Assembly: GCA_900466945.1 (NCBI GenBank)
Contig: UBNV01000008.1
Location: 62,001-126,000 of the forward strand
Length of the DNA: 64,000 nucleotides
Source: Hyphomicrobiales bacterium
Lineage (GTDB): Bacteria > Pseudomonadota > Alphaproteobacteria > Rhizobiales > Rhizobiaceae
Direction of reading: 5' to 3'
Of the stretch, positions 39,201-57,017 are shown in pieces. A program made the translations under genes and the position numbers. Numbering within the stretch: the first letter of the stretch is position 1; the number at the start of each line of letters is the position of its first letter. Below the pieces are notes generated by a model. It did not search any database. It had not been told where the DNA came from and saw only the letters and a list, made by a program, of their open reading frames with translations.

Positions 39201-40289
<1,089 letters not shown>

Positions 40290-40317
40290 GGATGCCGTCC
40301 ACCTTTCTGATATTTTG

Positions 40318-40351
40318 CCGGCCGCGTTTCCCTGGAGACGCGGCCGGTTTT
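40318..40351 (+). terminator. Rho-independent terminator of recA
   Basis: CCGGCCGCGT (40318-40327) pairs with ACGCGGCCGG (40338-40347), followed by TTTT; the loop can close further by GTTTC/GAGAC pairs. Confidence 0.85.
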
Positions 40352-40443
40352 CGTTGCGGCTGCTGGACAGGGATGAAGCCGGGCGATAAAAGCCATTGAT
40401 TTTGCAAATCGGCCGGCTTCCCGGCCTGAATGAAGGGCGTGAC

Positions 40444-43101
40444 ATGAGCGGTGTAAACGACATCCGGTCGACTTTTCTCGACTACTTCAAGACGAACGGT
40501 CACGAGGTCGTTTCCTCCAGTCCGCTGGTGCCGCGCAACGACCCGACGCTGATGTTCACCAATGCCGGCATGGTGCAGTTCAAGAACGTCTTCACCGGTC
40601 TGGAACAGCGTCCCTACTCGACGGCGGTGACCGCGCAGAAATGCGTGCGCGCGGGCGGCAAGCACAACGATCTCGACAATGTCGGTTATACCGCACGTCA
40701 CCATACCTTCTTCGAAATGCTCGGCAATTTCTCTTTCGGCGACTATTTCAAGGAGCGTGCGATCGAGCTCGCCTGGAACCTGATCACCAAGGAATTCGGC
40801 ATCGACCGCAACCGCCTGCTCGTCACTGTCTACCATACGGATGACGAGGCGCATGGCCTTTGGAAGAAGATTGCCGGTCTTTCGGACGACAAGATCATCC
40901 GCATCCCGACCAGCGACAATTTCTGGGCCATGGGTGACACCGGCCCCTGTGGTCCGTGTTCGGAAATCTTCTATGATCACGGCGATCATATCTGGGGTGG
41001 CCCTCCGGGTTCGCCGGACGAGGACGGTGACCGCTTCATCGAGATCTGGAACCTCGTCTTCATGCAGTACGAGCAGATCACGAAGGAGGAACGGGTCAAC
41101 CTGCCGCGCCCGTCGATCGATACCGGCATGGGCCTCGAGCGTGTCGCAGCGCTTCTGCAGGGGCGCCACGACAATTACGACATCGACCTCTTCCGCGCGC
41201 TGATTGACGCATCGGTAGACCTGACCGGCGTCAAGGCCGAGGGCGAGCGCCGCGCCAGCCACCGGGTCATCGCCGACCATCTGCGCTCGTCGGCTTTCCT
41301 GATTGCCGATGGCGTTCTGCCGTCGAACGAAGGCCGTGGTTACGTGCTTCGCCGTATCATGCGCCGCGCCATGCGTCATGCACAGCTGCTCGGTGCGAAG
41401 GATCCGATCATCTACAAGCTGCTGCCGGTCCTCGTGCAGCAGATGGGCCGCGCATATCCGGAACTGGTTCGTGCCGAATCCCTGATTTCCGAGACCCTGA
41501 AGCTCGAAGAAAACCGGTTCCGCAAGACGCTGGAACGCGGCCTGACGCTGTTGTCGGATGCCACGGCCACTCTCGACAAGGGCGACAGCCTCGACGGCGA
41601 AACCGCTTTCAAGCTTTATGACACCTACGGCTTCCCGCTCGACCTGACGCAGGACGCCCTGCGCGGCCGCGGCATCGGCGTCGATCTGACCAGCTTCAAC
41701 GATGCCATGCAGCGCCAGAAGGCAGAAGCTCGTGCCAGCTGGTCTGGCTCCGGTGACAAGGCGACCGAGACTGTCTGGTTCGAGCTCAAGGAGAAGTTCG
41801 GCGCGACCGAATTCCTGGGTTACAGTTCCGAGACGGCCGAAGGCCAGGTTCTGGCTGTCGTCAAGGACGGCAAGGTCATCGAGCAGGCGAGCGCTGGCGA
41901 AGAGGTCCAGATCGTCGTCAATCAGACGCCGTTCTACGGCGAGTCGGGTGGCCAGACGGGCGATACCGGCGAGATCGTCGGCGAGGGTTATTCGCTTGCT
42001 GTCACCGATACCCAGAAAAAGGGCGAAGGCGTCTTCGTGCATGTCGCGACCGTACAGAACGGGATCGTGAAGGCGGGTGGTGCCGTGACGCTCAACGTCG
42101 ATCATGCGCGCCGCTCGCGCCTGCGCTCCAACCATTCGGCGACCCACCTCCTGCATGAGGCGTTGCGTGAAGTGCTCGGCACCCATGTGGCGCAGAAGGG
42201 CTCACTGGTCGCGCCCGAGCGCCTGCGTTTCGACATTTCGCATCCGAAGCCGATCTCGGCCGAGGAGCTGAAGGTTGTCGAGGAGATGGCCAACGAGATC
42301 ATCCTGCAAAACTCGCCGGTCGCGACCCGCCTGATGGCGGTTGACGACGCGATCGCGGAAGGCGCCATGGCGCTCTTCGGCGAGAAATACGGTGATGAAG
42401 TCCGCGTCGTGTCGATGGGCACGGCCGTGCGCGGCGACAAGGCCGGCAAGGCCTATTCGATCGAACTCTGCGGCGGCACGCATGTGTCGGCCACGGGCGA
42501 TATCGGTCTCGTGCGCCTGGTCGGCGAGAGTGCCGTCGGCGCCGGCGTGCGCCGTCTCGAGGCGCTGACCGGTGAAGCGGCCCGTGCCTATCTTTCCGAG
42601 CAGGACGAGCGCGTGAAGACGCTCGCGTCGACGCTGAAGGTGCAGCCGACGGATGTCGTTTCCCGCGTCGAGGCTCTGGTCGAGGAACGCCGCAAGCTCG
42701 AAAAGGAACTGGCGGACGCCAAGCGCAAGCTCGCCATGGGTGGCGGTGCCACCGGCGGCGGTGAGGCGCCAAGGCAGGTCAATGGCGTCAACTTTGTTGG
42801 CCGCACGCTTGCCGGCATTGATGCCAAGGATTTGAAGGGCATGGCCGACGAGGCCAAGGCAGGGCTTGCCACCGCCGTCGTCCTCTTGATTGCGGTTGCT
42901 GAAGACGGCAAGGCTAGCGCTGTCGTGTCGGTCACACCTGACCTCACCGATCGTTTCAGCGCGGTCGATCTCGTGCGCGTCGCTTCTGCCGCACTCGGCG
43001 GCAAGGGTGGCGGCGGACGGCCGGACATGGCCCAGGCCGGGGGCCCAGATGGTGCTCAGGCCGATGCGGCGATTGCCGCGGTCGAGGCAGCGCTTAGCTG
43101 A
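40444..43101 (+). CDS. alaS: Alanyl-tRNA synthetase
   Basis: Class II synthetase of 885 residues. The N-terminal catalytic domain has [34 protein letters not shown] and [15 protein letters not shown]. The editing domain carries HxxxH in [11 protein letters not shown] and the late CGGTH; a coiled-coil and C-Ala domain end the protein with [19 protein letters not shown] 40444 was chosen with AAGGG upstream. Length is standard. Confidence 0.98.
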
Positions 43102-43115
43102 TGCTATCGAAACGG

Positions 43116-43140
43116 GGCCGGCGGTAACGCCGGCCTCTTT
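43116..43140 (+). terminator. Rho-independent terminator of alaS
   Basis: GGCCGGCG, loop GTAA, CGCCGGCC (43116-43135), followed by TCTTTCGTTTT. Confidence 0.85.
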
Positions 43141-43207
43141 CGTTTTGGGCAATCCTTACCCCCCTCTGCCGCTGGTCATCGCCGCAAAAGTCGCGCAGTG
43201 CATCCGG

Positions 43208-44845
43208 TTACGATGGATCGCTCGATCTAACGCGCTCCGTAATCTGACGTCGCGCTTCATCGAAGGACGGGACGAATTGCACGCCGTATTCCGGCACTTC
43301 GTGATGCAGCAGCATCTGCCGGATCTCCGGGCGGTCCGAGATCACATAAACCTGCACATGTTGGCGCACGGCCTTGCGGATGACGCCGGCGAGAAGATTG
43401 ACGCCCGATGTGTCGATGAAGCGAATCCCGTGGCAGTCGAGGACGAGATTGCGGTGGTCATCCGCGATCCTGTCGAGAACGGCACTGGCTGCCGCAACTG
43501 CGCCGAAGAAAAAGGCCCCGTCCAGCCGATAGGTCACCGTTCCCGCGTCCATTTCCTCCAGCGGATTTTCCACCCTTTCCGGTGTGATGCGGACATTCCT
43601 CGACATGTGATGGATGAACTGCAGGGCGGCCAGCGAGAAGCCGACGACGATGCCTTCCGTTAGGTCGCGGAAGACGACGAGCAGGAAAGTGACGGTCAGG
43701 ATCAGTGTTTCGCCGCGCGACGAGCGGACAAGCGCCACGATCGCGGATTTCTCCACCATGTTCCAGGAGACGACCGCCAGCACGCCGGCAAGGGCTGCGA
43801 GCGGGATGTAGGCGGCAAGCGGTGCCGCCACCAGCATGAAGACGAGCAGGAAGATGGCATGCAGCATGCCGGATACGGGGCTGGTGCCTCCGGCCCGGAC
43901 ATTGGTTGCGGTGCGTGCGATGGTTCCAGTGACGCAGATGCCGCCGAACAGGGCAGAGGCGATATTGGCCACGCCCTGGCCCACCAGTTCGGTGTTGGAT
44001 CTGTGCCGCCGCCCCGTCATGCCATCGGCAACGACGGCCGAAAGCAGCGATTCGATCGCACCCAGAAGGGCAAACGCGATGGCGTCGGGCAATACGGCGA
44101 AGGCGAGATCGAGGGATAGATCGGGCAGCGCCGGCATCGGCAGACCGGAAGGAATGCCACCGAATTTCGAGCCAATGGTCGAGACCGGAAGGTCGAAGAT
44201 GGCCGAGACCGCCGAGGCCACGATCACCGCGATGAGCAAGCCGGGCCAGGATGGGCGATATCGGCGCAGCAAGAGAATGACCGCCACGGTCACGCCTGCA
44301 ATTCCGGCGGCGGCCGGTGAGAAGCCGGGCAGGGCTGCGGCGATTGCTGAGAGCTTGTCGGCCAGCGGGCCGGGCTCTCCATTGGGGAAGGTCAGTCCCA
44401 GCAGTTCTCCGATCTGGCTGGCGAAGATGATGACTGCGATGCCCGCCGTGAAGCCGACGGTGACGGGATAGGGAATGAATTTGATGTAGTCCCCGATCCT
44501 CAGGAGCCCGCAGGCGATCAGCATCAGGCCGGCCATTGCGGTTGCGCGGATAAGGCCGTCAATGCCGTGAGTTGCCACGGTCGCGCTGACAAGGACGATG
44601 AAGGCACCGGCCGGGCCACCGATCTGGTGGCGGCTGCCGCCGAGCAGGGAGACCAGGAATCCGCCGATGATCGCGGTGTAGAGGCCTCGGTCCGGGGTGA
44701 CGCCCGAGGCGATGGCGATGGCCATCGATAGCGGCAGCGCGACGATGGCCACGGTGAGACCGGCCAATGCATCGGCCTTGAACTTCGCGGGACCATAACC
44801 TTCTTTGAAAACGCTGACGGTTTTCGGCAAGATGGCTTCGGTCAT
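43208..44845 (-). CDS. SulP-family anion transporter with STAS domain
   Basis: A 545-residue secondary transporter for sulfate or bicarbonate-like anions. The transmembrane part (about 1-420) has the SulP opening ALAGLTVAIVALPLSMAIAI, GGSRHQIGGPAGAF and LGAIESLLSAVVADGMTG. The C-terminal STAS domain (about 435-540) contains LVLDCHGIRFIDTSGVNLL. ATG 44845 starts at the usual place; an upstream extension is rejected. The substrate is not determinable from the sequence. It is divergent from a small membrane protein gene. Confidence 0.92.
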   Translation of the reverse strand: MTEAILPKTVSVFKEGYGPAKFKADALAGLTVAIVALPLSMAIAIASGVTPDRGLYTAIIGGFLVSLLGGSRHQIGGPAGAFIVLVSATVATHGIDGLIRATAMAGLMLIACGLLRIGDYIKFIPYPVTVGFTAGIAVIIFASQIGELLGLTFPNGEPGPLADKLSAIAAALPGFSPAAAGIAGVTVAVILLLRRYRPSWPGLLIAVIVASAVSAIFDLPVSTIGSKFGGIPSGLPMPALPDLSLDLAFAVLPDAIAFALLGAIESLLSAVVADGMTGRRHRSNTELVGQGVANIASALFGGICVTGTIARTATNVRAGGTSPVSGMLHAIFLLVFMLVAAPLAAYIPLAALAGVLAVVSWNMVEKSAIVALVRSSRGETLILTVTFLLVVFRDLTEGIVVGFSLAALQFIHHMSRNVRITPERVENPLEEMDAGTVTYRLDGAFFFGAVAAASAVLDRIADDHRNLVLDCHGIRFIDTSGVNLLAGVIRKAVRQHVQVYVISDRPEIRQMLLHHEVPEYGVQFVPSFDEARRQITERVRSSDPS

Positions 44846-44967
44846 GACTTTTTCGATGGCATGTGTCCCGTCACGGCATCCCCCAATTGCCTTCTGCCGG
44901 CATTGGAGCCTGAGTCCAGGTTTTTGACAACATGGCCAAAGGACTAGGTTCTGCGCGTACGTGATTG

Positions 44968-44995
44968 TCCCGGCTGTTCCGCCGGGATGATTTTT
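44968..44995 (+). terminator. Terminator-like hairpin directly upstream of a start codon
   Basis: TCCCGGC (44968-44974), loop TGTTCC, GCCGGGA (44981-44987) followed by TGATTTTT, ending 17 bases before the ATG at 45012. No plus-strand gene ends here, so it may be an attenuator in the leader of the next gene. Confidence 0.4.
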
Positions 44996-45011
44996 CGTAT
45001 GTAGGTAGATC

Positions 45012-45530
45012 ATGAAAACCGAGACAAGCTATCCGACCCTGATCGTCTATCCCCGCCGCGGATTCGGGGTTGTCTGGGCTGCCATGGCGGCCATTGTTTT
45101 GTCCGTGTCCATCGGCGGGTTGATGGCCAGCCTCCTGGGGGGCGATGGGGCGAGCCTGATGGTTCTCGTCTATCTGGTGCTGCTCGCCTCTGCCGTCTTC
45201 GGGCTTCGCAAGGGCTGGAGGGACCTGGCGCTCGCCACGCGGCCGGTGATCGAACTCAACAATGAGGAATTGATCGATCTCAGGATCGAGCGGCGCATAC
45301 CCTGGGCCTCCATGGTCGAGCTTGCGCAGCGTCGCGTGGATGGCCGTTGGGTGATCGACATCGACTATCTCGACGAGGATGACCCTGATCGTCTCGAGAG
45401 TTACGACCTGCCGCTCACCGGCTATCACATGTCGGGCCGGCGCCTCGGGGCCGAGATCCGCAAGCGCTTTGCCGAAGTCGACGCCGAGGTCGATACCGCT
45501 GAAGCAGAAAACCCGGCCACGTTGCCGTGA
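45012..45530 (+). CDS. Hypothetical membrane protein (two helices and a C-terminal soluble domain)
   Basis: A 172-residue protein without a name I can support. Two adjacent membrane helices (about 20-42 and 48-66) are followed by ALATRPVIELNNEELIDLRI, a small beta-rich domain like those of bacterial PH-type STM3941 proteins, and an acidic tail. ATG 45012 has GGTAG upstream. Its 3' end overlaps the terminator of the convergent icd gene. Confidence 0.7.
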   Translation: MKTETSYPTLIVYPRRGFGVVWAAMAAIVLSVSIGGLMASLLGGDGASLMVLVYLVLLASAVFGLRKGWRDLALATRPVIELNNEELIDLRIERRIPWASMVELAQRRVDGRWVIDIDYLDEDDPDRLESYDLPLTGYHMSGRRLGAEIRKRFAEVDAEVDTAEAENPATLP

Positions 45531-45537
45531 CCGGGTT
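45507..45537 (-). terminator. Rho-independent terminator of icd
   Basis: AACCCGG (45510-45516) pairs with CCGGGTT (45531-45537), and inner CACG pairs with CGTG around TTGC, with one mismatch between. The minus strand reads into TTTTCTG. It overlaps the end of the convergent upstream ORF. Confidence 0.75.
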
Positions 45538-45563
45538 CTGAATTTCAAAGACTTGGCTGCCGA

Positions 45564-46778
45564 TCAGGCGGCCATGGCCTTCTTGAGGTTTTCGTCGACC
45601 TTGTCGAGGAAGGCGGTGGTCGAGAGCCACGGCTGATCCGGACCGATGAGCAGCGCCAGGTCCTTGGTCATGTAGCCGGCTTCAACCGTGTCGATGCAGA
45701 CCTTTTCCAGCGTCGTTGCGAAGTTGGCCAGATCGGCATTGTCGTCCAGCTTGGCGCGGTGGGCGAGGCCACGGGTCCAAGCGAAGATCGATGCGATCGA
45801 GTTGGTTGAAGTTTCCTGACCCTTCTGGTGCTGGCGGTAGTGACGCGTCACCGTGCCGTGGGCGGCTTCGGCTTCGACGGTGCGGCCATCGGGGGACAAG
45901 AGAACCGAGGTCATCAGGCCGAGCGAGCCGAAGCCCTGAGCAACCGTGTCCGACTGAACGTCGCCGTCGTAGTTCTTGCAGGCCCAGACGTAACCACCGG
46001 ACCACTTCAGTGCAGAAGCGACCATGTCGTCGATCAGGCGATGTTCGTAGACGATGCCGGCTTCGTCGAACTTTGCCTTGAACTCGGTCTGGTAGACTTC
46101 TTCGAAGATATCCTTGAAGCGGCCGTCATAGGCCTTGAGGATGGTGTTCTTGGTCGACAGGTAGACCGGCCACTTGCGCATCAGGCCGTACATCATCGAG
46201 GCGCGGGCGAATTCGCGGATCGATTCGTCGAGGTTGTACATCGCCATGGCGACGCCTGCGCCCGGTGCGTTGTAGACTTCCTTTTCGATCACTTCGCCAT
46301 CTTCACCGACGAACTTGATCGTCAGCTTGCCCTTGCCGGGGAACTTGAAATCGGTCGCCTTGTACTGGTCACCGAAAGCGTGACGGCCAACGACGATCGG
46401 CTTGGTCCAGCCGGGAACGAGACGCGGCACGTTCTTGCAGATGATCGGCTCGCGGAAGATAACGCCGCCGAGGATGTTGCGGATCGTGCCGTTCGGGCTC
46501 TTCCACATTTCCTTGAGGTTGAATTCCTTGACGCGCTGTTCGTCCGGGGTAATCGTCGCGCACTTGATGCCGACGCCGTGCTTCTTGATGGCGTGGGCGG
46601 CATCGATGGTCACCTGGTCATTGGTGGCGTCGCGGTTTTCGACCGAGAGGTCGTAATATTCGATGTCGAGATCCAGGTAGGGCAGGATCAGCTTGTCCTT
46701 GATGAACTGCCAGATGATGCGGGTCATCTCGTCGCCGTCGAGATCGACCACCGGGTTGGCTACCTTGATCTTGGTCAT
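45564..46778 (-). CDS. icd: NADP-dependent isocitrate dehydrogenase (eukaryote-like, dimeric type)
   Basis: TCA-cycle enzyme making 2-oxoglutarate. The 404-residue protein resembles mitochondrial-type [27 protein letters not shown] at the start, [20 protein letters not shown] for isocitrate, [20 protein letters not shown], and [18 protein letters not shown] for NADP. Length fits that class. ATG 46778 follows GAGGATATTC. It is transcribed alone. Confidence 0.97.
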
Positions 46779-47000
46779 GAATATCCTCACGAGTTTTTGC
46801 CTGACGCGCAGGCGCGGGGAGGGCGCTCTGCCGATGGCCTGCCTATAACATTCTCTCGTTACAAGGCAAACAGGAGAGGGTGTCTTCCGGTAAATTCTAG
46901 GTTCAGACTTTCGACGTGCGTTTTGCCCCAAACTTGGTTGCGGGAGATGCCCGATTTGCGGCTAAAAGCAAAGTGTCGATCAGATCCATCGGAGTCTCCC

Positions 47001-47537
47001 ATGAAGCCCCAGTCCGCAGCCTTCGTCCTTGGCCTGTTTTTCGTATCGGTTGCGCCGAGTGCCGCGACAGCCGACATGAAGGCTCCCGTCCGGGAAATCA
47101 TCGAGGCGGCGGCCCGCAGCTGGGACAACACGATCGACGAGCCGGCCGAAGACGTCTTCAGCGTGGATCGGCTGGAGCGACTGTTCAGCGAGGATTTCGT
47201 TGAAGCTTTCGAGGCGGCATCGAAAAATCCGCCCTTCGACCCGCCGGAGGGCGAGACGACCGGCTATCCCTTCGACTACGACCCGATTGCCCAAGGGCAG
47301 GATGGTTGCCTCTTCGAGAATATTTATCTCGAGGATGATGAAGAGGGGCAGGTGACCGCGTTTTTCAACAATCGCCGTTGCATGGGCGAAGGCCCTGACT
47401 ACGAGGTCGAAACGGTCCTGATCTTCGAGGTCGTTGACGAGGACGGTCGGACGGTCATCGACGATTTCTACCCCGTGGTCGATGGGCAGAATGGCTCCTC
47501 AATCAAGCATGATTTGAAGGCGCAAGGCGGGCTTTGA
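47001..47537 (+). CDS. Secreted hypothetical protein
   Basis: A 178-residue exported acidic protein with no family I can name. The signal peptide is FVLGLFFVSVAPSAATA; the mature part has APVREIIEAAARSWDN, a PFDYDPIAQGQDGCLFENIY segment and FNNRRCMGEG, giving two cysteines that could form a disulfide. The fold looks like the small NTF2-like or DUF3828-type periplasmic domains, but I am not sure. ATG 47001 follows GGAG. It is divergent from icd. Confidence 0.7.
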   Translation: MKPQSAAFVLGLFFVSVAPSAATADMKAPVREIIEAAARSWDNTIDEPAEDVFSVDRLERLFSEDFVEAFEAASKNPPFDPPEGETTGYPFDYDPIAQGQDGCLFENIYLEDDEEGQVTAFFNNRRCMGEGPDYEVETVLIFEVVDEDGRTVIDDFYPVVDGQNGSSIKHDLKAQGGL

Positions 47538-47673
47538 GCTCCGGCGCGCCGTTTTCTCTGCACGAAACTCACGGGGCGCAACGCCGTTTCAGCGGCTGCC
47601 TTGCCGGTGCAACCCCTTTGCGCCCTGACGATTTTATGCCAATGGGTGGCCCACACGCATACAAGGGCAGATC

Positions 47674-48507
47674 ATGGCAGGGACGAACAGCGAACGCATC
47701 ATGCTGGCCGAAGGGCCGGCAATCATTCTGGTTGAGCCGCAACTCGGCGAAAACATCGGCATGGTGGCGCGCGCCATGGCCAATTTCGGCCTGGCTGAGC
47801 TGCGTCTCGTCAATCCGCGCGACGGCTGGCCATCCGAAAAAGCGCGCTCTGCAGCGGCCAAGGCCGATCACGTGATCGACGGAACGGTTGTCTTTGATAC
47901 GCTCGAAGAGGCCATCGCCGATCTCAACTTCGTCTATGCGACGACAGCCCGCTTCCGGGATGGCTTCAAACCAGTGCGCTCGCCGGTTACCGCCGCCGAG
48001 ACCCTTCGCCAGAAGTTTCGCTCCGGCGAGAAGACGGGCATCCTGTTCGGACGCGAGAAGTCGGGCCTCTCCACCGAAGACGTGGCGCTGGCCGATGAAA
48101 TCGTCACCTTCCCGGTCAATCCGGCCTTCGCCTCGCTCAACATCGCCCAGGCGGTCCTTCTCATGTCCTATGAATGGATGAAGTCCGACATTGAGGATCT
48201 GCAGTCCGTGCCGTTCGATGCGCCGGAGCAGCCACAGGCGACGAAGGAAGAGGTCGTCGGCATGTTCGAGCATCTGGAACAGGCGCTTGAGGTCCGGGGC
48301 TATTTTCATCCCGCCAGCAAAAAGCCGAGAATGATCGACAATCTGCGCGCTGTGTTCACAAGGCGGGCCTTCACGACACCCGAGATCCATGTGGTGCGCG
48401 GCGTGATCAACTCGCTCGACCGATTTTCCCGGCCAGGTCAGATCAATGCGTCGGTAAAGGCTGTGGTGGCGGAAGATGGTTCTGATGACGAAGGTTCCGG
48501 CAAGTAA
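47674..48507 (+). CDS. trmJ: tRNA (cytidine/uridine-2'-O-)-methyltransferase TrmJ
   Basis: SPOUT-fold methyltransferase for the ribose of position 32 in tRNA. The 277-residue protein shows [20 protein letters not shown] near the start and the SAM-binding trefoil-knot motifs [19 protein letters not shown] and [16 protein letters not shown]. The C-terminal about 90 residues are helical, as in TrmJ. It overlaps the murI start, so the two are probably cotranscribed. Confidence 0.92.
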
Positions 48508-49330
48508 CAGCGACACGGACGGCTTGAAGCCGATCCTGGTTTTCGATTCGGGCATCGGCGGCCTCACCGTCCTGCGCGAGGCGCGCCTCTTGATGCCGGA
48601 GCGCGGCTTTATCTATGTGGCCGATGATGCCGGTTTTCCCTATGGCGGTTGGGAAGAGGAGCCCTTGAAGGCGCGGATCGTCCGCCTGTTCGAGGATCTG
48701 TTCGCGCGGTACAATCCCGAGGCAGTCATCGTCGCCTGCAATACCGCCTTCACGCTTGCGGGTGCGGATCTTCGCCAGCACTTTCCGGAGATGCGCTTCA
48801 TCGGCACGGTGCCAGCCATCAAGCCGGCGGCAGAGCGCACGCGCTCCGGGCTCGTCTCGGTGCTGGCGACGCCTGGGACCGTGAAGCGCGCCTACACGCG
48901 CGATCTCATCCAGTCGTTTGCCTCGCAATGCCATGTTCGCCTCGTGGGCTCGGAGAACCTCGCGCGCATGGCCGAGGCCTATATCCGGGGTGAGACGCTT
49001 GATGATCAGGCCGTGCTTGCCGAGATCGCACCTTGTTTCGTCGACAAGAATGGAATGCGGACGGACATCGTCGTGCTGGCCTGCACCCATTATCCCTTCC
49101 TCGCCAATGTCTTTCGAAGGCTTGCCCCCTGGCCGGTAGACTGGCTCGATCCGGCGGAAGCCATTGCAAGGCAGGCGCGGCGCCTCGTTCCGCTAGTGGA
49201 GGGGGCAGAACACCCCGAGGATTTCGACTTCGCCGTCTTTACCTCCGGCAGCCAGGATTTCTCCACACGGCGCCTGATGCAGGGCATGGGCCTCTCGCTC
49301 CGGCCTGTGTCCGGACCCCTGTTCCGGTAA
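48485..49330 (+). CDS. murI: Glutamate racemase
   Basis: Makes D-glutamate for peptidoglycan. The 281-residue protein has [12 protein letters not shown] with the conserved Asp-Ser, the first catalytic cysteine in IVACNTAF and the second in [13 protein letters not shown] 48485 lies nine bases after GGAAG; ATG 48476 would touch that site. It starts inside the end of trmJ. Confidence 0.94.
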
Positions 49331-49382
49331 GATCTCGTTCGGCTCCGAACTGGCCTGCGACAATTTGTTGCATATCGGCAAC

Positions 49383-49430
49383 GGCTCCTTGTCAAGATTT
49401 GCAATCTCGAATTGCGATCTTGCGGGAGCC
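49383..49430 (+). other. Long imperfect hairpin downstream of murI
   Basis: GGCTCC (49383-49388) pairs with GGAGCC (49425-49430), CAAGAT (49393-49398) with ATCTTG (49417-49422) and GCAAT with ATTGC around a five-base loop. A GATTTTG tail follows. It could terminate murI or form the leader structure of the small ORF at 49485. Confidence 0.55.
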
Positions 49431-49484
49431 GATTTTGCATGGCATGTTCCGGCCATCCGCAACACAAACTACAGGAGGCGACAT

Positions 49485-49577
49485 ATGACTCATTTTTCTC
49501 TGCGCATGCGCCTCTCTGGCGGATCGGTGTCTTCGATGTGCGTGGGATCTCCCACCATCGCTCGCTACACCCGATGA
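49485..49577 (+). CDS. Candidate 30-residue microprotein
   Basis: A 30-codon ORF with a perfect AGGAGG ribosome site (49473-49478) six bases before its ATG. The product begins MTHFSLRMRLSGG and ends ARYTR; it is basic, with serine and a single cysteine, no membrane helix and no family I recognise. Its TGA stop is the first part of a terminator stem, so the ORF fills a very short transcription unit between murI and the DUF1127 gene. It could instead be a leader peptide or the coding part of a dual-function small RNA. Confidence 0.5.
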   Translation: MTHFSLRMRLSGGSVSSMCVGSPTIARYTR

Positions 49578-49597
49578 CTGTCTGATCAGTCATTTTT
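49575..49597 (+). terminator. Terminator fused to the stop codon of the 30-residue ORF
   Basis: TGACTG (49575-49580), loop TCTGAT, CAGTCA (49587-49592) followed by TTTTT. Confidence 0.7.
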
Positions 49598-49734
49598 CCT
49601 GCCTTTTCCGGCGTATTCAATCATCCTGACGTGACTTGCTGTCTGCGCGCCTGAACGCGTTCGTCCGCTCGTGTCACGTCGCTTTTCATCATCGAAAGGA
49701 CCTGGACGCATCGGCGTTCCGGGACGGACAAGTC

Positions 49735-49971
49735 ATGCACGAAAATCAATCTATAGTTGAAATTCCGCTTTCGAAGCGGATGGACGAACTGCTTGAACAC
49801 TTTGGTTCCTGGCGAATGCTTGCCGCGTTGATCGGGGCGAGCTGGAGGCGGCGGCAGGTCCGCAATCTTGCGGCGCATTTGTCACCGCAGATGCGCCGAG
49901 ACATCGGCTTGCCGGAGCACGAGGAGTGGAAGAGGCCAAGAAGTCTCGCCCTTTGGGATTTCCGGGTTTGA
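49735..49971 (+). CDS. DUF1127 small protein
   Basis: A 78-residue protein ending in the arginine-rich DUF1127 domain: WRRRQVRNLAAHLSPQMRRD followed by IGLPEH. In related bacteria such short DUF1127 proteins affect RNA turnover, phosphate and carbon metabolism and stress response. ATG 49735 is likely but has only a weak GGGACGGA upstream. It is followed by two hairpins. Confidence 0.82.
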   Translation: MHENQSIVEIPLSKRMDELLEHFGSWRMLAALIGASWRRRQVRNLAAHLSPQMRRDIGLPEHEEWKRPRSLALWDFRV

Positions 49972-49981
49972 GCAACGAAAA

Positions 49982-50060
49982 AACGGTTCGGGGGCCTCGG
50001 GCAATCGAACCGTTCTTCTATTTTCAGCGCAAGCAGACCACTCCGACGGGTGGTCTGCTT
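49982..50060 (+). terminator. Two consecutive hairpins after the DUF1127 gene
   Basis: AACGGTTCG/CGAACCGTT (49982-49990 with 50006-50014) is followed by CTTCTATTTT. A second stem, AAGCAGACCAC/GTGGTCTGCTT (50031-50041 with 50050-50060), has 11 paired bases and an 8-base loop. Confidence 0.75.
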
Positions 50061-50127
50061 TGCAAATCACTCGGGCTCGCTGACAGTCGGTATTCTGATT
50101 CTTCTATCGTTTCTCGCCGGACCAATC

Positions 50128-51264
50128 ATGCCCCCCAAGCCCGCCATCATGACCGCCTTTTTCCTGCAGCCGATCGCCTTTGGCTGCTGGTTGCCGCAGA
50201 TTCCCGGTGTGCAGGAGCGCCTTGCGCTCGGGCCAGCCGAACTCGCCATCGCGCTTCTCGGTCTGCCGACTGGCATCCTGCTGATGCTGCCCTTTGCGGG
50301 GCAATTGGTCGGCCGGATCGGCAGTCGCAATACGCTGATCAATGGTTTCCCGGTCTTTCTCGCGCTGGTTCCCTTACCGGTCGCGGCACCTGACATCGTC
50401 TCGCTTTTCCTGCTGCTGGCGCTTCTCGGGATCGGGCTTTCGACGATCGAGCTCGGTCTCAATGTCGAGGCCGATGTGATCGAGAAACGCGGTACGGCTT
50501 CAATCATGAACCGCTGTCACGGTTTCTGGAGTCTCGGGATCATGACCGGCAGTCTCATCGGTGCAGTCTTTCTCGCAATCGAAGCACCTCCATTCCTGGC
50601 CATCGGTCTGCTGTCGCTCCTTCTGGCGCCGGTCGCTCTGGTCGTCTGCCGGGCCTTGCCGGCGCACGCGGCTCCGGTCGCTGAAGCGGAGAAGCGGTCA
50701 TCCTGGCGTTTGCCGGGTCCCGCCATCCTCGGCATCAGCCTCTTCGTCTTCGGCATCACCATGACGGAAGGGGCCGTCGCCGACTGGTCTGCTGTCTATC
50801 TCAAAGATGTCTTCGCGACCTCGGGCATGGCGACGGGCATGGGCTATGTCGTCTTTGCCATGATGGTCTCGCTCGGGCGGTTCCTCGGCGATGGGGCCAA
50901 GGAGCGGCTGGGGGCGGTCGTCCTGGCGCGTATCTGCCTGTCGCTCTCACTGGCGGGGATGTTGCTTGTCGTTGTCGCCCCCGTGACGATCATCGTGTAT
51001 CTGGGACTTGCATGCGTCGGTCTCGGCGTATCGGTCGGCTTTCCGCTTGCCGTCACGGCTTCTGCCGATCTCGGCGATCGGCCCGCGGCTGAGAACGTCG
51101 CGATCCTGAGCTTCATTGCGCTGTTCGGCTTTCTGGTCGGGCCGCCGATGATCGGTTTTGTAGCCGAGCTCGCCGGACTGCGCAGCGGGCTTGCCACGCT
51201 TCTGCCTCCGCTGATACTCAGCATGGCGCTGGCTGGTCTCCTGCGTCGCCGAAAGGCCGCCTGA
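50128..51264 (+). CDS. MFS transporter
   Basis: A 378-residue permease with about 12 hydrophobic segments and the loop between helices 2 and 3 as GRIGSRNTLIN. It looks like the YbjJ/FucP-like subgroup with NVEADVIEKRGTASIMNRCHG in the centre (the N-x-E-x12-16-G-R-x3-MN-x-H pattern of that subgroup). Substrate unknown. ATG 50128 was chosen; an in-frame GTG at 50050 lies in the terminator hairpin and is rejected. Confidence 0.85.
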   Translation: MPPKPAIMTAFFLQPIAFGCWLPQIPGVQERLALGPAELAIALLGLPTGILLMLPFAGQLVGRIGSRNTLINGFPVFLALVPLPVAAPDIVSLFLLLALLGIGLSTIELGLNVEADVIEKRGTASIMNRCHGFWSLGIMTGSLIGAVFLAIEAPPFLAIGLLSLLLAPVALVVCRALPAHAAPVAEAEKRSSWRLPGPAILGISLFVFGITMTEGAVADWSAVYLKDVFATSGMATGMGYVVFAMMVSLGRFLGDGAKERLGAVVLARICLSLSLAGMLLVVVAPVTIIVYLGLACVGLGVSVGFPLAVTASADLGDRPAAENVAILSFIALFGFLVGPPMIGFVAELAGLRSGLATLLPPLILSMALAGLLRRRKAA

Positions 51265-51363
51265 CGTCGGCACTTCCCTGTGGGTTTCGCGGATGCAGGC
51301 CACACGGGGGCTTCCAAGTCTGTTAGGGACTAGAGTTCAACACAGGAATTGAGGATACCGCCA

Positions 51364-52884
51364 TTGAAGGTCGGAATCGATATGGGAACGGTGCAGGGCG
51401 GTCAGCCTGCCAAGCTCGATATCGAGGAGCTTCTCGCGACCCGTCTGCTCGTGCAGGGCAATTCCGGCTCGGGCAAGTCGCATTTGCTGCGCCGTTTGCT
51501 CGAACAATCTGCCCAGTGGGTGCAGCAGGTCATCATCGACCCGGAGGGTGACTTCGTCACGCTCTCCGACAAGTATGGCCACGTCGTGGTGGACGGCGAA
51601 CGGACCGAGGCGGAACTGGCCGGCATCGCCGATCGTATCCGTCGTCATCGCGTCTCCTGCGTGCTGACGCTCGAAGGTCTAGACGTCGAGCAGCAGATGC
51701 GCGCCGCCGGCGCCTTCCTGAACGGCCTTTTCGATGCGGATCGCGAATTCTGGTATCCGGTGCTGGTCGTGGTCGATGAAGCGCAGATGTTTGCGCCGGC
51801 CGTCGGCGGCGATGTCTCGGAAGACGCGCGCAAGATGTCGCTGGGCGCGATGACCAATCTGATGTGCCGTGGTCGAAAGCGCGGGCTGGCCGGCGTCATC
51901 GCCACGCAGCGCCTTGCCAAGCTCGCGAAAAACGTGGCCGCCGAAGCCTCCAACTTCCTGATGGGGCGCACCTTTCTCGATATCGACATGGCGCGCGCCG
52001 CCGACCTGCTCGGCATGGATCGCCGCCAGGCGGAGATGTTCCGCGACCTGCAGCGTGGCAACTTCGTGGCGCTCGGCCCTGCCATGTCGCGCCGGCCACT
52101 GCCGATCGTCATCGGCGCCGTCGAAACTTCGGCGCGTTCGTCATCCCCCATGCTCATGCCGCTGCCGGATGCACTGCCGGATGTCGAGGACCTGATCTTC
52201 ACGCCAGACCCGGAGGAATTCACCCGGCCGATCGCGCGCCGCGCGCCGCCCGCACCGCGCCCGACGACGGATATCCTCGCCGAACTTTCGCGTTCGACAC
52301 CGGCGTCCATGGCGCCTGTGCCAAGCGAATCGCCGATGCGCGGCGCTGAAATGTCGGCCGAAGAGCGTGAGGATCGGTTGTCTGCAGTGCTTTCCGAAAT
52401 CCTCGGGGATCCGCAGGCCGCCTACCGGACCGACAGTGTGCTGTATCAGGAGTTTCTCGTGCGCGCCCGCATGCGCCGCGTTGCCGGCCCGCCCATGCCC
52501 ATGGGCGAATTCCGTCGCCGTGTGGCGATCACGAGGGCCGGGGTGGACGACGAAACGGCGGCGAGCGAAGGCTGGCAGACTGCGCTTTCGCTGTCCGTGC
52601 GTGTCTCCGACGACCTTCAGGGCGTCTTTCTGCTACTCGCCAAGGCGGCGCTGCGCAACGAGGAATGCCCGTCCGACCATCGCATCGCCCGGGCCTACGG
52701 CACGCATTCGGCCCGCCGCGCCCGACGTCTGCTCGGCTATTTCGAGGAACAGGGGCTCGTCGTCGTGCATACCGACTTTTCCGGCAAGCGCATCGTCGCC
52801 TTCCCGGATCTGGAAGCCGAGACGAAGCCGGGTGATCCGAACCTCGTGGATGCAGACGATCAAACGACGTCGGCCGCCGAATAG
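51364..52884 (+). CDS. HerA-like (DUF87) ATP-binding protein
   Basis: A 506-residue P-loop ATPase of the HerA/FtsK superfamily. The first about 260 residues hold Walker A (VQGNSGSGKSHLLRRLLEQ), Walker B (VLVVVDEAQMFAP) and the RKRGLAGVIATQR stretch with the sensor glutamine. A proline-rich linker then leads to a helical C-terminal part with a predicted winged-helix (IARAYGTHSARRARRLLGYF). No NurA nuclease gene is nearby, unlike classic HerA. The start is a TTG: 51364 (GAGG nine bases upstream) is favoured over TTG 51349. Function unknown. Confidence 0.78.
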   Translation: MKVGIDMGTVQGGQPAKLDIEELLATRLLVQGNSGSGKSHLLRRLLEQSAQWVQQVIIDPEGDFVTLSDKYGHVVVDGERTEAELAGIADRIRRHRVSCVLTLEGLDVEQQMRAAGAFLNGLFDADREFWYPVLVVVDEAQMFAPAVGGDVSEDARKMSLGAMTNLMCRGRKRGLAGVIATQRLAKLAKNVAAEASNFLMGRTFLDIDMARAADLLGMDRRQAEMFRDLQRGNFVALGPAMSRRPLPIVIGAVETSARSSSPMLMPLPDALPDVEDLIFTPDPEEFTRPIARRAPPAPRPTTDILAELSRSTPASMAPVPSESPMRGAEMSAEEREDRLSAVLSEILGDPQAAYRTDSVLYQEFLVRARMRRVAGPPMPMGEFRRRVAITRAGVDDETAASEGWQTALSLSVRVSDDLQGVFLLLAKAALRNEECPSDHRIARAYGTHSARRARRLLGYFEEQGLVVVHTDFSGKRIVAFPDLEAETKPGDPNLVDADDQTTSAAE

Positions 52885-52914
52885 CCTCGATCGCTAGCAG
52901 GCCCGCGGGACGGT

Positions 52915-54150
52915 TCAGGCCGCCCGCTCTTCCCAGACCTTGACCAAGGCGACGATCGTCTCGACGGCCTTTTCCATATCCTGAACGCTCACCCATTCGA
53001 GCGGCGAGTGATAGGCATGGCCGCCGGTGTAGATGTTGGGGCAGGGCAGGCCCATGAACGACAGGCGTGAGCCGTCTGTGCCGCCGCGAATGCTGTGGCG
53101 CACGGGTTCGAGCCCGACACGTCGGACGGCTTCTTCGAGATTGTCCATGATCTCCGGATGGCGATCGAGCACGTCCTTCATGTTGCGGTACTGATGCTTG
53201 ACCGTGAATGTATGCCGCGAGCCGGGATAGGTGGCCATCACGTCGTTTGCGATGCGTTCCAGCAGGTCCTCCTTCTCCTTCAGGCCCTCTTCCGTAAAAT
53301 CGCGGATGATGAATTGGAGCTTGGCGCTTTCCATGCTGCCCGAGATATCGACCGGGTGGATGAAGCCCTGACGGCCCTCGGTGGTTTCAGGCGCGATGTC
53401 GCGGGGCAGGCGGGCGACGATGTCGCTTGCGGCCTTGATCGCGTTTTCCATTTTTCCCTTGGCATAGCCCGGATGCATTGCGACGCCCGTGATCTCGATC
53501 GTCACGCCGTCGGCCGAAAAGGTCTCGTTCTCGATCTCGCCGACGGTCGAGCCGTCGAGCGTATAGGCGAAGCGAGCACCGAGTTTTTGAAGATCCACCT
53601 TGTCGGCGCCGCGGCCGATTTCTTCGTCGGTGGTGAAAAGGATCTTGACGGTTCCACGCGGAATTTGCGGATTTGCCATCAGATGGGCCGCCGCCGTCAT
53701 GATCTCCGCCACGCCTGCCTTGTCGTCGGCACCGAGCAGCGTGGTGCCGTCGGTCGTGACGATGTCATTGCCGACCTGCTTGTTGAGCTGAGGATGGGAG
53801 GCGACTCGGATCACCTGGCTCGTGTCGCCAGGCAGTGCGATGTCGCCGCCCTGATAGTTACGCACCAGTTGTGGCTTGACATTGGTGCCTGTGAAGTCGG
53901 GTGCGGTGTCCATGTGGCTGCAGAAGCAGATGACCGGTACGTCATTCGCGGTGTTGGCCGGGATCGTCGCATAGACATTGCCGTGCTCATCCATATGCGC
54001 GTCGGAGAGGCCAAGCGCCAGGAGGTCAGCGACCAGCACGCGGCCGAGATCCTTCTGCTTTTCGGTCGACGGTTGTGCGTCGGATGTCGGATCGGACTGC
54101 GTATCGATCACGACATAGCGGAGAAAGCGGTCGAGAACGGTCTCGGTCAT
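52915..54150 (-). CDS. pepT: Peptidase T (tripeptide aminopeptidase)
   Basis: Zinc-dependent M20 peptidase that removes the N-terminal residue from tripeptides. The 411-residue protein shows ICFCSHMDTAPDF (HxD), TLLGADDKAGVAEIM and TTDEEIGRGADK (catalytic and metal-binding acids), then the lid domain and GGTDGSRLSFMGLPCPNIY with GGHAYHS at the end. Length is standard. Terminates 28 bases after the convergent HerA-like gene. Confidence 0.95.
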   Translation of the reverse strand: MTETVLDRFLRYVVIDTQSDPTSDAQPSTEKQKDLGRVLVADLLALGLSDAHMDEHGNVYATIPANTANDVPVICFCSHMDTAPDFTGTNVKPQLVRNYQGGDIALPGDTSQVIRVASHPQLNKQVGNDIVTTDGTTLLGADDKAGVAEIMTAAAHLMANPQIPRGTVKILFTTDEEIGRGADKVDLQKLGARFAYTLDGSTVGEIENETFSADGVTIEITGVAMHPGYAKGKMENAIKAASDIVARLPRDIAPETTEGRQGFIHPVDISGSMESAKLQFIIRDFTEEGLKEKEDLLERIANDVMATYPGSRHTFTVKHQYRNMKDVLDRHPEIMDNLEEAVRRVGLEPVRHSIRGGTDGSRLSFMGLPCPNIYTGGHAYHSPLEWVSVQDMEKAVETIVALVKVWEERAA

Positions 54151-54178
54151 GGGCTTTGCCTTGCTGTTATGCCTGTGA

Positions 54179-55012
54179 TCACTGGCTGACTTTGGTGCCG
54201 AAATGGCGGTCGAAGAGCGTGATCATTTCCTGCGTTCTAGCATTGGCGCTGTCGGCGCCGAGGACCACGCCGACGAGGCGGCGGTTGCCGTTGCTGGCCG
54301 AGGTCACGATGTTGTAGCCCGAGGCATTGGTAAAGCCGGTCTTGATGCCTTCGGCGCCCGGATATTGCACCAGGAACGCATTGTGGCCGCGAAACTTCAT
54401 GCCGCGGAATGTCATGCCGCGCGAGGCGAAGAGTTTGTATTCCTCGGGAAAGTCGCGCATCAGCGCCAGACCGAGCCTTGCCATGTCGGTCGCCGTCGTC
54501 ACCTGGCGCGGGTCGGGCAGGCCCGAGGGATTGGTGAAGACGGTGCTGGCCATGCCGAGCTCGCGCGCCTTCGACGTCATCATCTGACCGAAGGCTTCCT
54601 CGGAGCCTGCCAGTTCCTCGGCCACTGCGGTTGCCGCGTCATTGGTCGAGAGCACGACCATGCCCATAACGGCTTCGCGCACGCTGATCGTGTTGCCGGC
54701 GCCGACGGCGAACTTGTAGGGTTCCTTATCATTGGCATTCTTTGAGATGACCAGCCTCTGCTCCCAGTCGAACCGGCCGGAATGAAGGGCCTCGAAGGTG
54801 AGGTAGAGGGTCATCATCTTGGTGAGTGATGCCGGATAGAGCACTCTATCGGCATTGTCCGCTTCGAGGATCTTACCGGTTTCGGCATCGACCAGGATAT
54901 GCGCATGGCCGGGCTTCTGGATTTCCGCTGCCGCAGGGCTGATGACCATGAGGAGGCCGAGGAGGGCGAGCAAGGGCAGGCGGAACAGATCTCTCATCAT
55001 CAAGGGACGCAT
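54179..55012 (-). CDS. D-alanyl-D-alanine carboxypeptidase (PBP5/DacF type)
   Basis: Trims peptidoglycan pentapeptides in the periplasm. A signal peptide (LPLLALLGLLMVISPAAA) precedes the S11 domain with SxxK in YPASLTKMMTLY, SxN in VLSTNDAATAVAEE and KTG in GIKTGFTNASGYN. At 277 residues it lacks the PBP5 C-terminal domain and amphipathic membrane anchor, so it is probably soluble in the periplasm. ATG 54997 is an alternative start just inside. Confidence 0.93.
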   Translation of the reverse strand: MRPLMMRDLFRLPLLALLGLLMVISPAAAEIQKPGHAHILVDAETGKILEADNADRVLYPASLTKMMTLYLTFEALHSGRFDWEQRLVISKNANDKEPYKFAVGAGNTISVREAVMGMVVLSTNDAATAVAEELAGSEEAFGQMMTSKARELGMASTVFTNPSGLPDPRQVTTATDMARLGLALMRDFPEEYKLFASRGMTFRGMKFRGHNAFLVQYPGAEGIKTGFTNASGYNIVTSASNGNRRLVGVVLGADSANARTQEMITLFDRHFGTKVSQ

Positions 55013-55156
55013 CTTCTTTCATTGAGGATGCCCCGGGGATAGCGGAGTTCTTGCGTTCTGTCAGCCTTTGCAGGCAGTTTCGCGGCTTTTTCCGCTGGAG
55101 AACGTCCAGGAAAGACGCTATGTGCAGGTCCGGAGCCTGGCAGCGTCGATGCCGTG

Positions 55157-55185
55157 TTGACAAATTTGTACAACGCCACTAATGA
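55157..55185 (+). promoter_or_regulatory. Candidate promoter of rpsD
   Basis: TTGACA (55157-55162), 17-base spacer and TAATGA (55180-55185). The predicted transcript would start near 55192, leaving a leader of about 168 nt before rpsD. Confidence 0.6.
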
Positions 55186-55192
55186 CCCCACC

Positions 55193-55292
55193 AACGCCGG
55201 GCCGAAATGCCCGGTGTTTGTTTTGACATGTCCCGTGGTTTTCTCCGTTCGCTAACGTGAGAAGCCTGTCGGAACCTCGGAAACGGAGGTTC
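55193..55292 (+). other. Structured leader of rpsD
   Basis: Two hairpins lie in the rpsD leader. The first (about 55196-55217: CGCCGGGC, loop CGAAAT, GCCCGGTG, one G-U pair) is followed by TTTGTTTTG like a terminator. The second pairs GAACCTC (55272-55278) with GAGGTTC (55286-55292), and a G-C pair closes a GAAA tetraloop. The rest of the 55013-55359 gap holds the divergent promoter region of the carboxypeptidase gene; I see no other gene in it. Confidence 0.45.
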
Positions 55293-55359
55293 AGAGGAGG
55301 GCGTGTTTCCTTAAGCGGCTTGGCAACAAACCGCTGTAACCTGTTGAGAAGGAAATACG

Positions 55360-55977
55360 ATGAGCAAGCGCGCATCATCCAAGTACAAGATCGATCGCCG
55401 TATGGGCGAAAACATCTGGGGCCGTCCGAAGTCCCCGGTGAACCGTCGCGAATACGGTCCTGGCCAGCACGGCCAGCGCCGCAAGGGCAAGCTTTCCGAC
55501 TTCGGCGTGCAGCTGCGCGCCAAGCAGAAGCTGAAGGGCTACTACGGCGATATCCGCGAGAAGCAGTTCCGCGCCACTTACGAAGAAGCCAACCGTCGCA
55601 AGGGCGACACCGGTGAAAACCTGATCGGCCTGCTCGAGTCGCGTCTGGACGCCATCGTCTACCGCGCCAAGTTCGTTCCGACGGTCTTCGCAGCTCGTCA
55701 GTTCGTCAACCATGGCCACGTCACGGTCAACGGTGTTCGCGTCAACATCGGTTCGTACCGCTGCAAGGCCGGCGACGTTATCGAAGTTCGTCAGAAGTCG
55801 AAGCAGCTCGTGACCGTGCTCGAATCGGTTTCGCTCGCAGAGCGTGACGTTCCGGACTACCTCGAAGTTGACCACAACAAGATGGTTGCCACCTTCGCTC
55901 GCGTTCCTAACCTGGCGGATGTTCCGTATCCGGTCATCATGGAACCGCAGCTGGTTGTCGAATTCTACTCGCGCTAA
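55360..55977 (+). CDS. rpsD: 30S ribosomal protein S4
   Basis: Primary 16S rRNA-binding protein of 205 residues. Sequence features: [20 protein letters not shown] at the start, [20 protein letters not shown], and the S4 RNA-binding domain [15 protein letters not shown] through [15 protein letters not shown]. It lacks N-terminal zinc cysteines. Preceded by AAGGAA. In other bacteria S4 represses its own mRNA; here it stands as a single gene with a structured leader. Confidence 0.98.
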
Positions 55978-56000
55978 TTGCTCGCGCGACGGATTTGTGG

Positions 56001-56027
56001 AAAGCCGCCCTTCGGGGCGGCTTTTTC
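56001..56027 (+). terminator. Rho-independent terminator of rpsD
   Basis: AAAGCCGCCC, tetraloop TTCG, GGGCGGCTTT (56001-56024) followed by TTC; a UUCG loop makes it very stable. Confidence 0.95.
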
Positions 56028-56090
56028 TGTTTGCAGTGCAGCGCAGGCCGGGGAAAATGACACAGCAAGAACTCGGGTAAGGGGTGAGAG

Positions 56091-57017
56091 ATGGATCTGC
56101 AGCTGATCGCCGACGAAATTGTCAGCGCGCTCGAGCCGCGCCTCGGCGAGGGTAAGGTTGCCGACTATATTCCGGAGCTCGCGCGCGTCGATCCGAAGCA
56201 GTTCGGCATCGCCATCACCACGGTCGACGGCGAAACCTACAAGGCGGGCCACGCCGACACGGCGTTTTCGATCCAGAGCATTTCCAAGGTCTTCATGTTG
56301 ACGCTCGCGCTAGGCAAGGCGGGTGAATCCGTCTGGAAGCGGGTCGGCCGCGAACCGTCGGGCTCTTCCTTCAATTCCATCGTCCAGCTCGAACACGAGC
56401 ACGGGATGCCGCGCAATCCCTTCATCAATGCCGGGGCGATTGTCGTCACCGACATGGTGGTGGCCGGTCATGCGCCGCGCGAGGCGATCGGTGAATATCT
56501 GCGTTTCATGCGCTACCTCGCCGATGACGAGACCATGTCCATCGACGAGAAGGTGGCCCGATCGGAGCAGCGAACCGGGTATCGCAACTTCGCGCTCGCC
56601 AATTTCATGCGTGGCTTCGGCAATCTCGAACACCCGGTGGAGCACACGCTCGGCGTCTATTTCCATCAGTGCGCCCTGGCGCTCTCCTGCGTGCAGCTCT
56701 CGCATGCCGGCCTGTTTCTCGCCAATCGCGGCACCAATCCGCTGACCGGCTTCTCTGTCGTTTCGCCGAAGCGGGCGCGGCGCATCAATGCTTTGATGCT
56801 GATGTGTGGCCATTACGATGGTTCGGGTGATTTCGCCTATCACGTCGGTCTGCCCGGCAAGTCCGGCGTCGGTGGCGGCATTCTGGCGGTTGCGCCAGGC
56901 AAGGCCTCCATTGCCGTCTGGTCGCCGGGTCTTAACAAGGTCGGCAATTCGGCGCTCGGCTCAGTGGCACTCGAGATGCTCGCCTCTCGGACCGGCTGGT
57001 CCGTCTTCGGGACTTGA
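56091..57017 (+). CDS. glsA: Glutaminase
   Basis: Hydrolyses glutamine to glutamate and ammonia. The 308-residue protein has the serine-dependent beta-lactamase-like fold: [16 protein letters not shown] with S-x-x-[16 protein letters not shown], and [19 protein letters not shown] near the C-terminus. Length is normal. ATG 56091 follows GGGGTGAGAG. It is followed closely by ttcA on the same strand. Confidence 0.95.

Follow-up and report, generated by a model that had tools for sequence, protein, structure and literature searches.

The locus considered here raises the question of whether a group of elements packed between murI and a DUF1127 gene constitutes a gene in its own right or serves one of its neighbours. 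The elements lie at positions 49383-49597 of the window, by which the whole analysed stretch of 64,000 nucleotides is meant, and had been described in an earlier sequence-only reading as a compact transcription unit with a long hairpin, a 30-codon ORF preceded by a perfect ribosome site, and a terminator built on the stop codon. They very probably form the promoter of that DUF1127 gene together with its 5' leader, which would act as a translation-status attenuator. The unit of leader and upstream ORF (uORF) is real and was previously unannotated, carries promoter-like elements and a kept ORF frame, and is very probably homologous to the duf1127_1 leader of Sinorhizobium meliloti (PMC12218461). 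The uORF is probably a decoy mini-gene by means of which the cell can switch DUF1127 on when protein synthesis falters.

In S. meliloti, the transcription start site is followed after 30 nt by a 29-aa uORF (sORF26) and after 279 nt by DUF1127 (Kothe et al. 2025, PMC12218461). According to that article, a short uORF RNA is seen, DUF1127 is kept off only with uORF translation, and this translation controls transcription attenuation. The effects of start-codon, stop-codon, synonymous and deletion mutations are described there, as are induction by translation inhibitors, derepression by synonymous changes in the C-rich codons 3, 5, 9 and 10, and a hairpin between the ribosome site and early codons that was predicted with RNAfold (PMC12218461). 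Rho was the presumed termination factor, since mutation of the sole candidate intrinsic terminator was without effect (PMC12218461).

The features of the window are collected in the table. The AGGAGG (49473-49478), the ATG at 49485, the 30 sense codons and the TGA (49575-49577) are present as the sequence-only reading had reported them. Homology with S. meliloti puts the +1 at A49455, with which the conserved AUCCGC opens, and given this +1 the uORF would start after 30 nt and DUF1127 after 280 nt.

Table. Features of the DUF1127 promoter and leader, in window coordinates
Feature	Position	Strand	Remarks
Upstream dyad GTTGC-N6-GCAAC	49367..49382	+	Putative operator half (DNA element); mostly conserved in 21 close loci
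Imperfect hairpin	49383..49430	+	-72 to -25 from the inferred start; probably promoter DNA
Inner dyad TGCAATCTCGAATTGC (TGCAAT/ATTGC)	49400..49415	+	Putative operator
-35-like CTTGCG	49419..49424	+	Weak -10-like CATGTT at 49443-49448
DUF1127 mRNA leader	49455..49734	+	280 nt; +1 set at A49455 by homology
AUCCGC, outer helix 5' strand	49455..49460	+	Pairs with 49519-49524
Shine-Dalgarno strand CAGGAGGCG	49472..49480	+	Pairs with 49509-49518, bulge at 49515
uORF MTHFSLRMRLSGGSVSSMCVGSPTIARYTR	49485..49577	+	30 codons and TGA
Ribosome-site-masking strand	49509..49524	+	Codons 9-13 (CGC CTC TCT GGC GGA) and one base
uORF stop-codon hairpin	49573..49594	+	Terminator-like; U-tract not conserved
45 nt 3' of the uORF stop	49578..49622	+	C 29%, G 16%; position of the published delta-1 attenuation region (PMC12218461)
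Long conserved stem GACGTGA/TCACGTC	49628..49680	+	Between uORF and DUF1127; RNAalifold
Conserved hairpin immediately 5' of the DUF1127 start	49701..49724	+	RNAalifold
DUF1127 gene	49735..49971	+	78 aa; regulated gene

A 405-base query (49331-49735) matched 32 of 63 genomes of the window's genus, 21 of them at nearly full length. Near-identity blocks in these 21 aligned loci comprised the two upstream dyads, the -35 region, AUCCGCAAC...ACAGGAGGC, the ATG, codons 8-13 and the stop-codon stem; much of the 157 bases separating the uORF from DUF1127 was nearly identical as well. The uORF had 30 codons, with no indel or internal stop, in 21/21 close loci, and the block of ribosome site and codons was common to all 30 loci taken from the 32 matching genomes.

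A covariance model was built on the 30 loci of the window's genus and matched 32 of 33 genomes of a second genus and 45 of 57 of a third. With strict filters, it matched 30 of 394 genomes, in 10 genera, in a sample of the family drawn evenly over genera. Two weak matches within the family (L056 and L059) lack DUF1127, are each the sole match of their genus and are probably due to chance, so that eight genera remain in which the element was found ahead of DUF1127. A sample of the order (397 genomes, strict filters) gave six matches, four of them in family members and two weak ones in other families, whose loci were unmatched by the DUF1127 profile. Since the strict filters, applied to evenly drawn genera, drop weak matches, both 30/394 and 6/397 are probably lower bounds, and the element may occur more widely beyond the family. 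No convincing second copy was found in the window's own genome (best E 0.8 and 2.5). Weak second model matches were recorded in two other genomes, G454 (C10:29820-29890, E 0.007) and G492 (C11:111330-111398, E 0.0035), and may be chance or further leaders.

S. meliloti itself was not met in the sequence searches (0 of 394 genomes; none of 8 matches Sinorhizobium). A locus of the second genus, L041, was found by the window-genus model and has a uORF of the S. meliloti type, 29 aa long with C11 and A15, and DUF1127 at 279 nt. Of the published sequences it has the octamer at nt 121-128 exactly and the 18-mer at nt 192 with 2 mismatches. In place of T17, the third residue published, it has M, and all six loci with C11 have V or M there.

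For the wider analyses, an alignment (A2) of 100 loci, with 92 distinct rows, was kept to 100 sources, leaving out the two loci without DUF1127 (L056, L059), the duplicates L031 and L032, and the near-duplicates L002, L005, L009, L020 and L025. A match to the DUF1127 profile lay on the same strand, 150-420 nt downstream, in 100/100 aligned loci; the weak model matches L056, L059, L118 and L119 had none. The profile was made from 20 loci, 16 of which belong to the 100-locus set, so that 84 of the 100 are independent of it. The distance from element start to profile position 1 had a median of 281 nt and a lowest value of 104 nt over the 100 loci, and was 270-290 nt in 93 of them and in 77 of the 84 independent ones. 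From uORF to DUF1127 it was 251.4 nt (sd 5.1, 97 loci), a spread that is understated because the ATG was sought at 225-270 nt. The window's DUF1127 protein scored 14.8 bits against Pfam DUF1127, below the cut-off of 23.3, which four of nine proteins from other loci passed, and at E up to 1 it was unmatched in NCBIfam. As the window protein falls below the gathering cut-off though orthologous to proteins that pass, automatic annotation could miss the gene.

The structural evidence concerns two helices, AUCCGC/GCGGAU and CAGGAGGCG/CGCCUC(U)CUG, by which the uORF ribosome site would pair with codons 9-13. Over the 100 loci of A2, 92.1% of the cells were paired, and pairing fell to 40-60% when the partner strands were slid by 1 to 3 columns. 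Changes on both sides of a pair were counted in 47 cells, against 16.5 (sd 3.2) in shuffles, none of 500 of which reached 47. The excess was less clear for the number of pairs with such a change (6 compared with 4.1, a number that 23 of 500 shuffles reached) and for further pair types (24 against 21.1, reached by 15 of 500), and the helix end pairs were unpaired in 38 and 29 rows. Because A2 had been aligned to the model structure and contains related rows, this covariation is support and not proof. In the 30-locus alignment A1, where the helices hardly vary, no both-side change was found. The nine-pair ribosome-site helix is kept in 21/21 close loci, with one end pair broken in two. RNAalifold, applied to a structure-blind whole-leader alignment of a 42-locus group of other genera, recovered both helices in shortened form; for the 21 close loci it kept the ribosome-site helix and paired the 5' UCCG before DUF1127, at its ribosome-site region, and not with GCGGAU.

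Farther downstream, the stem GACGTGA/TCACGTC is present in both aligned groups, and a hairpin at 49701-49734, ahead of the DUF1127 start, may mask the DUF1127 ribosome site. RNAalifold also gives a long-range alternative, in which the 5' UCCG pairs with a CGGA close to that ribosome site.

Codon choice within the uORF points in the same direction as the covariation. A core of Arg-Leu-x-Gly-Gly or a near form was counted in 83 uORFs (14 of 97 were off-pattern and uncounted, and two of the 83 have Phe for Leu). Its leucine codon is CTC in 60, CTT in 19, CTA in one and CTG in one, so that CTG accounts for 1/81, compared with 94/230 (41%) in six window ORFs; its last glycine is GGA in 69/83, compared with 10/180 (6%) in the same six ORFs. 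Random synonymous recoding, performed on 92 loci that do not include eight of the A2 loci, weakened the fold on average (mean z -1.1, below 0 in 82/92), a modest effect that reached the 5% level singly in 21/92. Synonymous divergence was 0.059 in codons 8-14 and 0.468 in codons 15-30. Compensatory changes and codon choice support, without proving, a helix between codons 9-13 and the ribosome site of the uORF. The window also has an excess of C over G (0.38/0.17) in codons 3-10 and in the 45 nt after the stop (0.29/0.16), and C exceeds G in 96/97 post-stop stretches and in 95/97 early uORFs.

The proposed transcription scheme would run as follows in this genome. Transcription would start at A49455. 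With good ribosome loading the uORF would be translated, and its C-rich early codons would come free in the wake of each ribosome; a termination factor, presumably Rho, would grip these codons together with the C-rich post-stop stretch, and transcription would end before DUF1127, leaving a short uORF RNA. If initiation stalled or ribosomes were scarce, either a stalled ribosome would cover the C-rich codons or the ribosome site would fold onto codons 9-13; with the codons covered or folded, termination would fail and DUF1127 would be transcribed. The basis of this scheme in the window and its relatives is the anatomy, the conservation, the compensatory pairing, the codon choice, the C-over-G skew and the link to DUF1127; for this genome, the start site, Rho and induction would be expected by analogy.

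The uORF might instead be an independent gene encoding a microprotein with a role of its own, as the sequence-only reading had suggested, and the kept frame and length in 21/21 loci would agree with this, as would the appearance of a stop in at least one row in 195 of 200 column shuffles of codons 15-30. Its residues, however, are weakly constrained: the dN/dS check proposed earlier, run over the 21 loci, gave 0.74 for codons 2-30 (1.05, 0.62 and 0.56 in three subgroups) and 0.76 for codons 15-30, compared with 0.23 for DUF1127 (codons 2-58, aligned without gaps). The five shuffles without a stop (mean 0.89, sd 0.22, minimum 0.64) have a range that includes 0.76. The open frame is kept and the second-half residues are hardly constrained, which fits a uORF whose translation outweighs its product. 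Further evidence against a dedicated gene is that the uORFs of 97 loci vary in length between 27 and 37 aa and have divergent C-termini, that the codons follow the ribosome-site pairing, that DUF1127 comes next in every aligned locus, and that in S. meliloti synonymous changes abolish regulation, so that the RNA matters (PMC12218461). An independent microprotein is therefore regarded as highly improbable. Slightly less remote, yet still improbable, is a dual-function small RNA, in which the short attenuated transcript would also act in trans on other mRNAs or via the peptide. Here, and in speaking of a compact transcription unit, the sequence-only reading came close, since a short RNA containing the uORF is made from the S. 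meliloti homologue (PMC12218461). One article also counts sORF26 as one of the novel sORFs located in ncRNAs annotated earlier (PMC10117765); the bases conserved most strongly, however, are explained by internal pairing, and the covariance models of Rfam 15 gave no match at E up to 1 in 45000-54000.

Two of the hairpins could be read as terminators. A stem does stand at the uORF stop codon, with arms GAUGACUG/CAGUCAUU and a start two bases before the TGA (49573-49600, -9.1 kcal/mol, z -2.7, 3 of 200 shuffles as stable). It is a conserved hairpin, but a consensus terminator scan of 48400-50400 found none (mean 2.5 in shuffles), and the U-tract, which in the window has five U counted from the six-pair stem, or three from the eight-pair stem, and then CC, is not conserved across the 21 close loci. 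In the window's group the hairpin might nevertheless be an intrinsic terminator, with attenuation by ribosome position at the stop codon and not by Rho, which is a variant of the preferred explanation (the chances assigned to the rivals are not mutually exclusive). The U-rich tail would suit this, as would the retention of all six pairs in 21/21 loci and the compensatory change seen at two pairs (5 cells, compared with 1.1 in shuffles), although 55 of 500 shuffles reached that number of pairs and four of the five cells fall at one pair in the related loci L018-L021. Other groups often have a stem of different sequence at or around the uORF stop, and 87/97 stop regions fold at -6 kcal/mol or better, compared with 42% of mononucleotide shuffles; the hairpin is, however, missing from the RNAalifold consensus of the 42-locus group. 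In S. meliloti, moreover, mutation of nt 121-128, beside the stop, was without effect, and 3' ends cluster at nt 170-190 (PMC12218461); a ribosome at the stop would also be expected to block the stem, giving the opposite sign to the published effect. Intrinsic termination at the stop codon is consequently unlikely in this group, and in view of these two S. meliloti results an accessory role for the hairpin, or protection of the short RNA at its 3' end, is more likely. As no working intrinsic terminator was reported for S. meliloti (PMC12218461), whereas a U-rich tail follows the stop hairpin in the window, termination may proceed differently here.

The other candidate is the first hairpin, which had been considered as a possible murI terminator, and this reading, with the remainder put down to chance, is extremely unlikely. 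The long imperfect hairpin is certainly there, more stable than 200/200 shuffles (region 49360-49440, -30.9 kcal/mol, z -4.2), and murI is the next upstream gene in the window, but a U-tract is missing directly 3' of the hairpin, the inner dyad is conserved while the outer GGCTCC/GGGAGCC arm is not, and the dyad persists where no adjacent murI was found, for example in L018, L021, L039 and L041. Over 97 loci, murI is adjacent in 37 and not adjacent in 60, being farther upstream in 12 and not found within the flank of about 1.5 kb in 48. In L005-L014 and L016, murI lies about 1.5 kb upstream, its match cut by the locus edge, so that another segment stands between murI and the leader there. As an RNA hairpin the element fares no better despite its stable fold: it lies upstream of the start site set by homology and is therefore probably promoter DNA. 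It consists mostly of the second dyad plus flanks, and the outer pairing of these flanks is restricted to the window and its closest relatives.

For the attenuator reading, this upstream region is the promoter. Loose regular expressions found a GTTGC/GCAAC-like dyad in 76 and a TGCAAT/ATTGC-like dyad in 87 of 100 loci, and TTG stands between -40 and -28 in all 100; the alpha-proteobacterial promoter consensus is given as CTTGAC-N17-CTATAT (PMC8844928). In the window's own genome, the inner dyad has 12 sites at up to 2 mismatches (2 for a backward-read control), only the window's being exact; of six others examined, four are located within ORFs longer than 160 codons, and none precedes a copy of the unit, by eye. 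A regulator probably uses the upstream dyads as its operator. VtlR/LsrB was considered owing to its small-protein and sRNA targets and was rejected, as its box GCAT-N3-TG-N3-T has no exact match on either strand of 39925-56782.

The published account of the S. meliloti attenuator relied on reporter data for one strain and an RNAfold structure (PMC12218461); compensatory changes and codon bias over eight genera now provide evolutionary support for that structure. The device goes with DUF1127 and depends little on the peptide, and the covariance model enables the leader to be annotated. As far as was searched, the distribution in eight genera, the compensatory pairing and the codon-choice support are new here. 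The word 'conserved' is absent from the main text of PMC12218461, while PMC10117765 has a section on the conservation of its small ORFs, and a published conservation note on sORF26 may exist. Two parts may be additional to those treated in PMC12218461, namely the uORF stop-codon hairpin and the conserved promoter double dyad. A joint reading would combine a family-wide RNA translation sensor, an extra stop-hairpin module and an operator-binding regulator. It is put forward tentatively, as possible but on the whole somewhat doubtful. The codons of the decoy ORF, an element without a match in Rfam 15, would have been selected to mask its own ribosome site, and the stop hairpin of the window's group would be an additional module for intrinsic termination or 3'-end protection.

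Among known systems, trp- and his-type leader-peptide attenuators also consist of a translated uORF followed by a hairpin. The window differs in that its uORF lacks a run of codons for any one amino acid, the trp-type criterion, and in that the best-supported helix masks the ribosome site of the uORF. Rho attenuation of the tnaC type (E. coli tnaCAB, as presented in PMC12218461) is similar in that uORF translation decides the access of Rho; the window, however, has no evident stalling peptide, and the duf1127_1 device has one required element at the start of its uORF besides one after its stop (PMC12218461). The VtlR/LsrB-activated promoters of sRNAs and small proteins (PMC7486931, PMC8844928) share with the window a dyad-bearing promoter before a small rhizobial unit, but the box described in those articles is missing from the window promoter. 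The duf1127_1 leader of S. meliloti (PMC12218461) differs in having a uORF of 29 aa, compared with 30 in the window, whose stop hairpin is followed by a U-rich tail; it shares with the window a uORF at 30 nt from the start (here placed by homology), a leader of about 280 nt, a ribosome site paired with early C-rich codons, a C-rich post-stop stretch and the DUF1127 gene itself.
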